Both the position numbers and the translations under genes were made by a program. From Pontibacter oryzae (GTDB taxonomy: Bacteria > Bacteroidota > Bacteroidia > Cytophagales > Hymenobacteraceae), in the NCBI RefSeq assembly GCF_003576375.1, contig NZ_QWGE01000004.1, forward strand, positions 372,001-436,000: a stretch of DNA of 64,000 nt, read 5' to 3'. Shown piece after piece: positions 6,675-61,370 of this stretch. The notes beneath the pieces were generated by a model. The model ran no database searches. It worked only from the letters and a program-made list of their open reading frames with translations, and was not told the origin of the DNA. Position 1 is the first letter of the stretch; every line of letters begins with the position of its first letter.

Positions 6675-6749
6675 GCGAGCGCATCCGCTTGTGCCGTTTC
6701 TATCTTTGTTACGGTGACAAGAGTTAGCAGCACAAGCGGACGCTTGCGC
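6675..6749. repeat. REP-like inverted pair between polX and GT9
   Basis: Two short hairpins in opposite orientation: GCGAGCG/CGCTTGT at 6675-6692 (7 pairs, two of them G-T) and GCACAAGC/GCTTGCGC at 6730-6749 (8 positions, one mismatch). The 14-mers at 6681-6694 and 6730-6743 are complementary at 13 of 14 positions. Such paired palindromes are the layout of bacterial REP/BIME elements; a RAYT gene is present at 48.5 kb. A TATCTTTG box sits between the arms. Confidence 0.55.
6701..6708 (+). promoter_or_regulatory. Possible -7 element for the GT9 gene
   Basis: TATCTTTG lies 60 bases before the GT9 ATG, inside the spacer of the inverted pair. It has no -33 TTG at a proper distance. If used, the transcript would start near 6715 and include the right hairpin in its leader. 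Confidence 0.35.
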
Positions 6750-11079: not shown

Positions 11080-11096
11080 GTAACACGGAATAAAGT

Positions 11097-11140
11097 ATAA
11101 ACAGAAGGGCCACTGATCACTCAGTGGCCCTTCTGTTTAT
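11097..11140. terminator. Bidirectional terminator
   Basis: Perfect 20-base arms around a 4-base loop (TCAC): ATAAACAGAAGGGCCACTGA at 11097-11116 and its complement at 11121-11140. It sits between two convergent genes (ending at 11079 and 11161), so it can stop transcripts from both sides. An AAGTATA copy overlaps the left edge. Confidence 0.9.
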
Positions 11141-11160
11141 AAAGCTATAATTTCTCTGAA

Positions 11161-23460: not shown

Positions 23461-23521
23461 AACAAGAGAAAAGGGCTGGTTTATACTTCCATAAAGTATA
23501 AACCAGCCCTTTTCTCTTGTT
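23461..23521. terminator. Long bidirectional terminator
   Basis: Arms of 28 bases (23461-23488 and 23494-23521) are perfectly complementary around a 5-base loop. The arms begin AACAAGAGAAAAGGGCTGG and end at the loop with TATACTT, so the motif occurs on both sides of the loop. It separates convergent genes. Confidence 0.9.
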
Positions 23522-36797: not shown

Positions 36798-36816
36798 AGC
36801 TAAGTATATATCATAA

Positions 36817-36857
36817 GCAAAACGGCCACCCGATATTATATCGGGTGGCCGTTTTGC
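36817..36857. terminator. Perfect bidirectional terminator
   Basis: 20-base arms (GCAAAACGGCCACCCGATAT and its complement) with a single-base loop, between convergent SirB1 and redoxin genes. Confidence 0.93.
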
Positions 36858-36874
36858 TTGGGTAAAAAGTAAGC

Positions 36875-47929: not shown

Positions 47930-48325
47930 CTATCTGTAAGGAAAGCGTACAAACAAAACCTGCCCCATAGCATCTTTTTCGTATTTGGCTACAGTATATT
48001 GTTGAAATCGTTCTTCAAAATTTAACTTTCCTGGGTATACTTCTGGCGGTAACGGTTTAGTATTCAGGAAGTAATATACTTTGGTGTTGCCATATTTAGT
48101 ATGCGGCATAAAGTCTCCGTAGGCCTGCATCTGCGCCCAAAGCGTATCCTCTACAGTTACCGCGTAGATGCGGGTAATGGGCCCGGTATTATTTTCGTTT
48201 CGGTACATGGCTATCTCTTTAAAGTTGCCTTCCAAATCGTTTACACTTGGCTGAGATAGGGCATCGTACATAAACCATACCACAAGGAGGCAGGCAAGGG
48301 CTATGAGTATAGTTTTAAGCTTCAT
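47930..48325 (-). CDS. Small membrane-anchored protein, unknown
   Basis: 131 residues. One N-terminal hydrophobic helix (TILIALACLLVVWFMYDAL), then an exported soluble domain with phrases YAVTVEDTLWAQMQAYGDF and NTKVYYFLNTKPLPP. No lipobox and no recognised domain. Possibly an inner-membrane-tethered periplasmic protein. The gene stands alone beside the RAYT element. Confidence 0.7.
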   Translation of the reverse strand: MKLKTILIALACLLVVWFMYDALSQPSVNDLEGNFKEIAMYRNENNTGPITRIYAVTVEDTLWAQMQAYGDFMPHTKYGNTKVYYFLNTKPLPPEVYPGKLNFEERFQQYTVAKYEKDAMGQVLFVRFPYR

Positions 48326-48421
48326 GCGGGCTAAGGTAACTAGTTATGCTGATGCAAAACCAGCGTTAATGTATAAAGTTTGGAAAAAGCAGTGCTCTTT
48401 CTCTATATATGGGAATGCTTT

Positions 48422-48444
48422 GGCGCGGAAGTTACTTCCGCGCC
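48422..48444. repeat. REP palindrome, left of RAYT gene
   Basis: GGCGCGGAAGT-T-ACTTCCGCGCC, a perfect 11-base-arm palindrome with one central base, 57 bases before the RAYT start. It shares the 17-base core CGCGGAAGTTACTTCCG with the copy at 49049-49071. Confidence 0.75.
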
Positions 48445-48500
48445 GGCAGAAGAGCTTGGAAGCGTGTAACTTATCTTGCCAAATCTGCGTGCTGCTTGTT

Positions 48501-49043
48501 ATGAGCGAAAAGTACAAGGCAGGGGATACGGAAGGCATATACTTCGTCACGATATCCGTCATCCAATGGGCAGATGTGTTCACCCGCCGCGACTACTGTG
48601 AAATTATCTGTAACAGCCTCGCCTACTGCCAAAAAGAGAAAAACCTGACCCTCTACGCCTGGTGCATCATGACCAACCACTTGCACCTTATTTGCTCATC
48701 CCCTGTGTTGCCAAACATTATGCGGGACTTTAAAAAGTATACTTCCAAGGAGTTGTACAAAGCCATCAAGCAAAACCCGCAGGAAAGCAGAAAAGGATGG
48801 TTGCTATGGTTGATAAACGCAGCAGGGGAGCAAAGCAGCAAGCACGAGGAGTATAAGTTCTGGCAGCCCGGGTATCATCCCATCTTACTGCACGATAACC
48901 AGACCATGGAGCAGAAGTTAGCGTATTTGCACCATAACCCCGTGAAGGCCGGTTTTGTGGAGGAACCGGAGCAATGGTACTACAGCAGCGCCAGAGACTA
49001 TGCCGGGGAGAAGGGCAGGCTAGAGGTTGTATTGTTAGAATAA
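48501..49043 (+). CDS. REP-associated tyrosine transposase (RAYT, Y1_Tnp)
   Basis: 180 residues from the ATG at 48501; the frame runs further upstream without family support. The HUH motif is in WCIMTNHLHLICSS. The catalytic tyrosine helix is LAYLHHNPVKAGFVEEPEQW, the usual Y-x-HHNPVxAG signature, ending in YSSARDYAG. RAYTs are single-copy IS200-like enzymes that recognise REP palindromes. Three or more such palindromes flank this gene. Full length and probably active. Confidence 0.9.
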   Translation: MSEKYKAGDTEGIYFVTISVIQWADVFTRRDYCEIICNSLAYCQKEKNLTLYAWCIMTNHLHLICSSPVLPNIMRDFKKYTSKELYKAIKQNPQESRKGWLLWLINAAGEQSSKHEEYKFWQPGYHPILLHDNQTMEQKLAYLHHNPVKAGFVEEPEQWYYSSARDYAGEKGRLEVVLLE

Positions 49044-49048
49044 CACCT

Positions 49049-49071
49049 AGCGCGGAAGTTACTTCCGTGCT
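49049..49071. repeat. REP palindrome, right of RAYT gene
   Basis: AGCGCGGAAGT-T-ACTTCCGTGCT has one mismatch to a perfect 11-base-arm palindrome and nearly equals the left copy at 48422-48444. It begins 6 bases after the RAYT stop. Confidence 0.75.
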
Positions 49072-49083
49072 TAGCTTATATAG

Positions 49084-49129
49084 GCGAATCTGAGATTCGC
49101 TATTATTGCATGTCACGGAGCTAAGCTCC
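49084..49129. repeat. Further REP-like palindromes
   Basis: GCGAATCT-G-AGATTCGC (49084-49100, perfect 8-base arms) and GGAGCT-A-AGCTCC (49117-49129, perfect 6-base arms) follow the right REP. They have the same design, a short GC-edged dyad with a one-base centre, but different sequences, so they are probably a second and third REP family. Confidence 0.6.
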
Positions 49130-49146
49130 ACGCCGGGACAAGAAAA

Positions 49147-49174
49147 AGCCGCAGCTGATTTCTCAACTGCGGCT
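49147..49174 (-). terminator. mutB terminator
   Basis: AGCCGCAG pairs with CTGCGGCT (8 bases) with a T-tract on the minus strand from the AAAAA at 49143-49147. 20 bases past the mutB stop; it may also stop RAYT transcripts. Confidence 0.8.
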
Positions 49175-49193: not shown

Positions 49194-51338
49194 TTAACTC
49201 TTCACTGATGCAATGAGTTTTTCCAGGATGTTCTGCGCGGCCACCGAAATAATGGTGCCCGGGCCGAACACGCCCACGGCACCGGCTTTAAACAGAAAGT
49301 CGTAGTCCTGCGCCGGAATAACACCACCCACAATCACCAGAATATCCTCGCGGTCGAGTTTGCGGAGCTCTTCGATGAGTTGCGGCACCAGCGTTTTGTG
49401 GCCGGCTGCCAGTGAGGATACACCTACTACGTGCACGTCGTTTTCGGCGGCTTGCATGGCTACCTCGGCTGGGGTCTGGAACAGCGGCCCAATATCCACA
49501 TCAAAGCCAAGGTCGGCGAAGGAGGTGGCGATTACCTTGGAGCCACGGTCGTGGCCGTCCTGGCCCATCTTGGCGACCATGATTCTTGGCCTGCGGCCTT
49601 CCAGTTCTTCAAACTCATCGGCCATGGCTTTGGCCCGTTCGAAGTTTTCGTCGTCGGTTAGTTCTGCGGAATACACGCCTGATATTGCTCTGATTACTGC
49701 TTTATGCCTGCCAAAAACTTTTTCCAACGCATCGGAGATCTCACCCAAAGTGGCTCTGCGTCTGGCAGCCTCTACGGCTAAATCCAGCAGGTTGCCCTCT
49801 CCGGATTCCGCCGCATCGGTTAAAGCCTGCAGCGCATTTAGCACACTACCTTCATCTCGGCTTTCTTTTATACTTGCCAGCCTGCGCAGCTGCGATTCGC
49901 GCACGGCGGTGTTATCAATATCCAGAATATCAATTTCCTGGATTTGGCTTGGTTTATACTTGTTAACGCCAACAATGATGTCTTTGCCGGAGTCGATGCG
50001 GGCCTGCTTGCGGGCGGCGGCCTCCTCGATGCGCATTTTCGGCAAACCAGTCTCGATGGCTTTAGCCATACCTCCGAGTTCTTCCACCTCCTGCATCAGC
50101 GCCCAGGCTTTATGTGCGATCTCGTGCGTGAGTGCCTCAACGTAGTATGAGCCACCCCAAGGGTCCACTACATTGGTGATGTGCGTTTCCTGCTGCAGGT
50201 AAATCTGCGTGTTGCGGGCAATACGTGCCGAGAAATCCGTTGGCAAGGCAATGGCTTCGTCGAGGGCGTTGGTATGCAAACTTTGCGTGCCACCCAGCGC
50301 AGCAGCCAAGGCCTCCACGCAGGTGCGGGTAACGTTGTTGAACGGATCCTGCTCGGTTAAGCTCCAGCCAGAAGTCTGGCAGTGTGTGCGCAGCGCCAGT
50401 GATTTCGGATTTTTCGGGTTGAACTGTTGGATGAGCTTGGCCCACAGCATACGCGCGGCGCGCATCTTGGCTATCTCCATAAAATGGTTCATGCCGATGG
50501 CCCAGAAAAACGACAAGCGCGGCGCAAAATCATCAATGTCCATACCTGCCTTCAGACCGGTGCGCACATACTCCAAGCCGTCGGCTAAAGTATAAGCCAA
50601 CTCGATATCGGCAGTGGCGCCTGCCTCCTGCATGTGGTAGCCCGAGATAGAAATAGAGTTGAAGCGCGGCATCTTCTTGGAGGTATACTCAAAGATATCC
50701 GCAATGATTTTCATACTTGGCTCCGGCGGGTAGATATAGGTATTTCGCACCATAAACTCCTTCAGGATGTCGTTCTGAATCGTTCCTGAAAGCTGCTCCG
50801 GCTTTACGCCCTGCTCTTCGGCGGCCACAATGTAGAACGCCATGATCGGCAGTACGGCCCCGTTCATCGTCATGGAAACCGACATCTGGTCCAGCGGAAT
50901 CTGGTCGAAGAGGATCTTCATGTCTTCTACCGAGTCGATGGCTACACCGGCTTTGCCCACATCGCCCACCACGCGCGGGTGGTCGGAGTCGTAGCCGCGG
51001 TGCGTGGCTAGGTCAAACGCTACCGAAAGGCCTTTCTGGCCGCCCGCCAGGTTGCGGCGGTAAAAGGCGTTGCTTTCCTCAGCGGTAGAGAAACCGGCAT
51101 ACTGGCGGATGGTCCAGGGCTTTTGCACATACATGGTGCTGTAAGGGCCGCGCAGGTATGGCGGCAAGCCAGCGGCAAACCCGGTGTGCTCAAAGTGCAC
51201 GGCATCCTCCGAAGTATAAAAGCTTTTAACGTCTATTTGCTCCGGTGTTTTCCAGGTGCTCGGCTGCAACGGGTCTTTTGGGCCTTGCCCTCCGGCAGCC
51301 ACCTGGTTAATATCTATCTTAGAAAAGTCAGGCTTCAT
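49194..51338 (-). CDS. mutB: Methylmalonyl-CoA mutase, large (catalytic) subunit
   Basis: 714 residues, full length. B12-dependent isomerase converting methylmalonyl-CoA to succinyl-CoA. The N-terminal TIM barrel starts near [20 protein letters not shown], and the active-site segments [17 protein letters not shown] and [14 protein letters not shown] are present. The C-terminal cobalamin domain has [20 protein letters not shown] with the Co-ligating His596 and [12 protein letters not shown]. Partner of the small subunit encoded just upstream, separated by an unrelated NTF2-like gene. MeaB lies at 42.2 kb. Confidence 0.97.
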
Positions 51339-61318: not shown

Positions 61319-61370
61319 ATAAAAACAGCGGCGGCCATACTTTGCAAAGTATGGCCGCCGCTGTTTTTAT
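61319..61370. terminator. dnaA terminator, perfect palindrome
   Basis: 26-base arms with no loop (left 61319-61344, right 61345-61370), beginning ATAAAAACAGCGGCGG and containing CATACTTTGCAAAGTATG at the centre. The flanks carry two AAGTATA copies. Serves convergent dnaA and the next gene. Confidence 0.92.

Follow-up and report, generated by a model that had tools for sequence, protein, structure and literature searches.

The window, a 64-kb stretch of the Pontibacter oryzae genome, holds a gene for a REP-associated tyrosine transposase (RAYT) set among short palindromes. A gene for a 131-residue protein lies on one side; on the other is a longer gene which we take to be mutB, encoding a methylmalonyl-CoA mutase-like subunit. 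The features of the locus are collected in table 1.

Table 1. Features of the RAYT locus, in positions of the window.
Feature	Positions	Strand	Basis
Gene for 131-aa protein, neighbour of the RAYT gene	47930..48325	-	ORF
Upstream palindrome GGCGCGGAAGT-T-ACTTCCGCGCC, foot TTGG	48420..48444	.	read as collapsed (double-foot) REPIN; sister locus L007
RAYT coding sequence, 180 aa	48501..49043	+	ORF, profile matches, 30-row alignment
H1 of downstream REPIN, foot CTA, stem GCGCGGAAGT...ACTTCCGTGC, G.T mispair	49047..49071	+	sequence, orthologs, folding
Linker, TATA-containing, T1 type	49072..49083	+	ortholog comparison
H2 GCGAATCT-G-AGATTCGC	49084..49100	.	dyad search, ortholog comparison
H1', inverted, GGAGCT-A-AGCTCC, somewhat decayed; REPIN right end	49112..49136	-	ortholog comparison
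Terminator-like hairpin at mutB 3' end, outside REPtron	49147..49174	.	sequence
mutB (presumed), conserved neighbour	49194..51338	-	ORF

The gene product is a Y1/HUH RAYT with the motifs, length and HuH–Tyr spacing of Bacteroidetes subclass 2.6. It matches the NF047646 REP_Tyr_transpos model at 117.4 bits (4.6e-34; cut-off 80), which bears out the earlier note's naming of the gene, and Pfam Y1_Tnp at 6e-8. The IS200 model gives 20.5 bits, far below its cut-off of 55. The HUH motif is N-H60-L-H62, followed by WQ at 121–122, Tyr142 within YLHHNP and SS at 162–163; 82 residues separate H60 from Y142. These three catalytic-motif residues, H60, H62 and Y142, do not vary in any of the 30 aligned rows, and neither do W121, N146, P147, S162 and S163. 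The best solved relative is TnpArep 4er8 (6.3e-8), an E. coli enzyme (PMC6006769). The signature described for subclass 2.6 comprises NH[LIV]H, WQ, YIH[QN]NP, about 179 residues, a median HuH–Tyr spacing of 82 and an SS extension (PMC6006769). NHLH, WQ, the length, the spacing and SS all fit; the tyrosine motif departs from the signature at two letters. The genome encodes three RAYTs, the other two only 49–53% alike to this one. The third (L006, 1340–2200) is flanked on both sides by a mixed set of hairpins of its own, GCCAGTTTGTAACTGGC among them.

The arrangement that the earlier note had described, a complete Y1 gene between two near-identical palindromes with two dyads close by, is present in full. 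The palindrome at 48422–48444 has 11-bp arms around a one-base centre, that at 49050–49070 contains one mispair, and the further dyads lie at 49084–49100 and 49117–49129. In the window, perfect arms of at least 8 bp around a one-base centre occur three times, against 0.8 for five Markov sequences, and arms of at least 9 bp twice, against 0.2. Two of the three stand at the RAYT gene; the third is a long terminator-like hairpin at 36815. Very long perfect hairpins with arms of 21–28 bp are found at 11096–11141, 23461–23521, 36815–36859 and 61319–61370, and these four are probably bidirectional terminators.

Folded as single-stranded DNA (ssDNA), the hairpins at the RAYT locus close on a 3-nt loop. 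The one-base centre noted earlier thus holds for the sequence of 48422–48444, but not for the folded strand. H1 has CGC in its 5' arm and GTG in its 3' arm, and hence a G.T mispair, where the complement carries A.C. In all three hairpins tried, the G.T strand folded more stably than its complement (-9.1 against -7.1, -7.2 against -6.6 and -9.3 against -7.1 kcal/mol). The upstream palindrome pairs CGC with GCG and has no mispair; its two strands fold nearly alike (-13.6 and -13.4). The feet at this locus are CTA and TTG. No GT[AG]G abuts the stem, in line with the earlier note, which saw no obvious GTAG head.

The dyads constitute one REPIN and one palindrome resembling a collapsed REPIN, not separate REPs. 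Treatment of the four as separate elements was dropped once aligned orthologs gave one composite unit: the three downstream dyads form H1, linker, H2 and inverted H1'. The full unit, as seen in relatives, is H1-H2-H2'-H1', two REPs paired head to head over about 120–130 bp with halves of 52–55 nt each; a short form carries a single H2. A terminator-like hairpin similar to that at 49147–49174 precedes the REPs in relatives. Each half of the upstream palindrome resembles an outer half of H1, and a whole H1-H2-H1' unit occupies the same site in the sister locus L007, so that 48422–48444 looks like a REPIN that has lost its middle. The double-foot REPs of subclass 2.4 have been proposed to arise when an inverted REP pair loses its centre (PMC6006769).

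A hairpin rule for Bacteroidota RAYTs

The REPs of these RAYTs often follow a common rule: a foot (G)-H-T-R, then a hairpin S-CGC-N5-N3-N5'-GTG-S', mostly of 21 nt, with one G.T mispair at a fixed place. The training set comprised 78 of 89 loci, those in which the RAYT match spanned 150 residues or more; the 11 with shorter matches were dropped. L051–L064 and L078 were excluded, as each (15 of 15) has an exact 100-mer in common with one of L007–L024. Sequence within 400 bp of the RAYT gene was counted as flank, and that beyond as outside. The 61.0 kb of flanks contained 105 hairpins of the form S-CGC...GTG-S', spread over 51 of the 78 loci, and the 275.3 kb outside contained nine; here and in the held-out loci below, the enrichment beside RAYTs is about 50-fold. 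Their length was 21 nt in 90 of 105. Of the 105 feet, 98 have T at -2, 95 have a purine at -1 and 96 have either C or A at -3.

Perfect-stem versions occurred at three and two sites in the training flanks (six and four counting both strands), the upstream palindrome of the window being one of the three. Nine other stem versions were found zero or one time each, and the reversed mispair (CTC..GGG) not at all in these flanks. A search for one-mispair hairpins that did not presuppose CGC returned 129 with G.T or A.C against 20 with other mispairs in the flanks (61 of 78 loci), and 27 against 23 outside. In the commonest form (70 of the 129), 6 bp separate the 3-nt loop from the mispair. When the RAYTs were grouped by single linkage at 65%, a strict-rule hairpin was present in 14 of 24 clusters, 12 of which have T at -2 in their modal foot. 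It was missing from the other ten clusters, and from 27 of the 78 training loci.

The motif and its predictions were recorded before 69 new loci were taken from a phylum-wide search, which found a match in 93 of 395 genomes; the 69 are among the matches listed. They have no exact 60-mer in common with the training loci, and come from related RAYT lineages, so that the test is not fully independent of training. A division at a profile score of 200 bits was made during the analysis, outside the recorded predictions. The 52 loci at or above it have 55 rule hairpins in 41.2 kb of flanks (25 of 52 loci) against three in 111.8 kb outside, whereas the 17 lower-scoring RAYTs have none beside them. Pooling all 69 gives 55 in 54.8 kb against three in 148.8 kb. 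Perfect stems, by strand counts, amounted to two and two in the flanks of the 52 and two and none outside. Of the 55 held-out feet, 54 have T at -2, 53 a purine at -1 and 46 G at -4. A strict hit was missing at 27 of the 52 loci; with about half of them lacking one, the rule is not universal, or the hairpins there have decayed. The recurrence of foot and mispair in training and held-out loci agrees with the earlier suggestion that the recognition rule may differ here, as it does seem to.

REP copies in this genome and in relatives

In this genome the REP family of the window RAYT is probably now confined to the gene, and its core is not dispersed. A 16-base core with free centre has exactly two copies in 4.23 Mb, both flanking the RAYT gene and none away from it, which places the pair beyond chance. 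Allowing up to three mismatches gives 17 matches on each strand, where a reversed-pattern control gives 22, and these additional matches are therefore at background. The earlier note had proposed a search for the core and its variants, holding that a lack of other copies in the genome would speak against a REP set; taken literally, other copies are indeed lacking. Its REP set survives in part: the palindromes are of REP type and their class is dispersed in related species, but they do not form a dispersed set here. The core searches by themselves would have led to the verdict 'not a REP'.

Dispersal was followed with a strict H1 pattern, CTGGCGCSGRN{5,9}YCSGTGMC, in 50 genomes of the genus Pontibacter. 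It is present in 35 of these (reversed control 0–1) and absent from 15; the richest carry 39, 38, 36 and 32 copies. The matches listed are all 25 nt long, with one further match of 24 nt, and the stem tips of the dispersed class sort into few types. Among 50 loci fetched around dispersed hairpins, 45 have no RAYT match and the other five are the mutB locus itself. H1 copies greatly outnumber RAYTs, for example 38 to three in one genome (G011). Some congeners also have dispersed copies of a GCGARTC dyad, as many as 11, but in the window genome this dyad does not exceed its control; a looser H2 pattern gave one match there against two in the control.

The only strict H1 match in the window genome lies at L164 (1501–1610, contig C3), in a related, longer REPIN whose ends are CTGGCGC and GCGCCA and which, by eye, contains three or more hairpins. 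The 3-kb locus L164 has no RAYT match, and the tip type of this REPIN is the commonest among the H1 matches listed for G011 and G020. The REP of the second RAYT, L005, has 12 near copies in the genome (up to two mismatches, control 0), three of them at the L005 gene; one REP of this sister family (TATAGCGCAAGCGTCCGCTTGTGC) stands at 6730–6749 of the window, on the minus strand. Several congeners have REPs 26–28 kb away from the RAYT gene. A 14-kb stretch of the window genome chosen by that distance (L139) contains no rule hairpins.

Two REP types, T1 and T2 (the CCGGTATC type), were assigned by reading of ortholog alignments. At one intergenic site, adjoining a gene presumed to be hisI, T1 and T2 REPINs swap or stand in tandem between species (L127, L136 and orthologs L215–L244). 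The comparison covered 30 of the 50 genomes, with one locus unreadable; in the 29 readable loci, by eye, seven have a T2 REPIN, four a T1 REPIN, one both side by side and 17 none. Such a filled or empty site would be the trace expected of mobile elements, its edges being too diverged for the target to be read.

History and orientation of the gene at the mutB locus

The RAYT at the mutB locus is under purifying selection, and the locus is fixed and vertically inherited. mutB adjoins the gene in 17 of the 18 closest orthologs; the 18th is on a short contig, beside the 131-residue protein gene. dN/dS is 0.05–0.12 in the five unsaturated ortholog pairs of 120, the three stop-carrying orthologs being left out. 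In-frame stops in those three of 18, together with the lack of an ortholog in 31 of 50 genomes, make the RAYT dispensable. The mutB end was located in 30 of the 31, and at least five of these 30 (L176, L178, L182, L196 and L200, by eye) keep a REP at the mutB place without a whole RAYT, one of them with a broken RAYT piece.

In the RAYT tree, whose root was not inferred, the 19 genes of the mutB locus share one branch (support 91/97, not starred). Outside it fall two RAYTs from Rufibacter and one from a metagenome, which carry the same GGAAGTTACTTCC tip as T1. On the branch, 11 rows are T1, seven are T2 and one has no REP in reach; to judge from the alignments, the REP type would most simply have changed once, from T1 to T2.

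The gene itself also differs in orientation. Six T1 genes (L008, L010, L011, L012, L014 and L015) are reversed relative to mutB when compared with the other 13, of which 12 were judged against mutB and one (L018) against the 131-residue protein gene. The mutB-side unit has the same direction in turned and unturned loci, which means that the gene segment alone has turned. The turning amounts to two changes on the RAYT tree, with one unresolved fork. Turned genes are confined to loci with REPs on both sides; in L016 (T1) and the T2 loci, whose REPs are one-sided, the gene is unturned. Exact inverted matches across the gene reach 10–35 bp in unturned T1 loci, 9–27 bp in the turned six (9, 11, 12, 14, 15 and 27 bp individually) and 6–9 bp in T2 loci, so that present-day repeats are long at some turned loci only.

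Two routes to this pattern were weighed. The gene may have turned in place, most simply via recombination of the inverted REPs on its two sides. Alternatively, the RAYT may have been lost and have later re-entered the same REP in reverse, with no inversion in place. The REP-only loci among the 30 genomes suggest that loss is common and that REPs could be landing sites, and at most of the turned loci the inverted match is short today, as re-entry would allow. Re-entry fits less well with a tree that places all six turned genes within the mutB-locus clade at a cost of two changes, and with the finding that no turned gene was seen among loci with one-sided REPs. Loss and re-entry is accordingly somewhat unlikely, though a serious contender, and inversion between flanking REPs is the route kept in the mechanism below.

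Proposed mechanism and relation to known systems

Taken together, the locus is very probably a REPtron of Bacteroidetes RAYT subclass 2.6, in which a domesticated, vertically inherited single-strand HUH nuclease would recognize its own REP hairpins as ssDNA. The following steps are proposed. (i) The RAYT would recognize its REP hairpins once these are exposed as ssDNA. (ii) The enzyme would read foot and mispair and so distinguish the REP strand and the complementary one. (iii) Cleavage would take place near the foot. (iv) REPINs would have been moved in the past by the RAYT as non-autonomous elements. (v) The gene would have turned relative to mutB as set out above. The foot (G)-H-T-R may be read as GT[AG]G into which a single base has slipped. 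Strand specificity is described for the enzymes of E. coli, Stenotrophomonas and Marinomonas, which rely to varying extents on GTAG and on irregularities of loop or stem (PMC8266576); by analogy with these, the fixed G.T mispair is likely to be a strand mark.

A wider proposal joins several of these points: a second code for subclass 2.6, made up of the (G)-H-T-R foot and a strand-marking G.T mispair; a variable stem tip that would set the pairing of RAYT with REP, the tip having passed from GGAAGT to CCGGTATC in the mutB-locus lineage; and a RAYT that turns its own gene between inverted REPs. That all of this holds at once is distinctly unlikely.

The locus could also be an insertion sequence of the IS200/IS605 kind that transposes as a whole, with the palindromes as its left and right termini. 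A Y1 gene between two palindromes, with hairpins on either side, in a genome with three RAYTs is what such an element would present. The IS200 score below cut-off, the fixed place beside mutB in 17 of 18 orthologs, the divergence of the genome's other two RAYTs (no recent copies) and the excess of H1 copies over RAYTs in G011 make this very improbable. Least probable of all is that the palindromes are terminators or mRNA hairpins of the flanking genes, unrelated to the RAYT: they do lie between convergent genes and beside a terminator-like hairpin of mutB, but that hairpin is already a separate one, the REP hairpins retain mispair and foot and accompany RAYTs in other genera with the enrichment given above, and the same GGCGCGGAAGTTACTTCCGTGCC flanks two Rufibacter RAYTs (55% protein identity) at loci without mutB.

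As a REPtron, the locus belongs to a kind already known. Bacteroidetes RAYTs with unusual repeats lacking GT[AG]G have been published (PMC6006769), and the RayT of Chryseobacterium has been used in PMC11194056, with no palindromes described in the passages covered. Subclass 2.6 resembles the present system in its phylum, in motifs and length, and in atypical flanking structures without GT[AG]G (PMC6006769). Copies of those structures are described elsewhere in the host genome, whereas here they are confined to the gene; and foot, fixed mispair, usual length and paired REPIN form are here defined and tested. A consensus for subclass 2.6 REPs was not found in the sections covered of PMC6006769, PMC8266576, PMC3733652 or PMC11194056; Table S1 of PMC6006769 may hold part of one.

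The E. coli REPtron (TnpAEc, REP y/z, BIME; group 2) is similar in its HUH RAYT, in inverted REP pairs beside the gene and in an imperfect palindrome with a conserved irregularity (PMC8266576). Strand-specific recognition was shown for E. coli (PMC8266576), and would apply here by extension. The E. coli REPs have a GTAG foot and an AA-GC bulge, in contrast to the (G)-H-T-R foot, single G.T mispair and few REP copies found here. Group 3 REPtrons, of Stenotrophomonas (Sm) and Marinomonas (Mb), share small hairpins at the side of the gene, and the Marinomonas REPs are concentrated near the gene (PMC8266576); theirs are perfect palindromes with GTAG, whereas perfect stems are the rare form here. 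The double-foot REPs of subclass 2.4 are likewise symmetric palindromes attributed to central deletion (PMC6006769), as proposed for 48422–48444, but belong to another RAYT subclass and have another foot. New here are the hairpin rule together with its test on held-out loci, the anatomy of the REPIN and the turning of the gene.

The rule concerns the GTAG-less REPs of a RAYT subclass that dominates one phylum, REPs so far labelled 'atypical'. Since it predicts substrates, it makes in-vitro cleavage tests of such a RAYT possible, and it is also a way of finding REPs of this kind in Bacteroidota genomes. The mutB locus offers a natural series, in which the same gene at the same place is accompanied by a changing REP tip and a changing orientation, for the co-evolution of a tamed transposase and its target.
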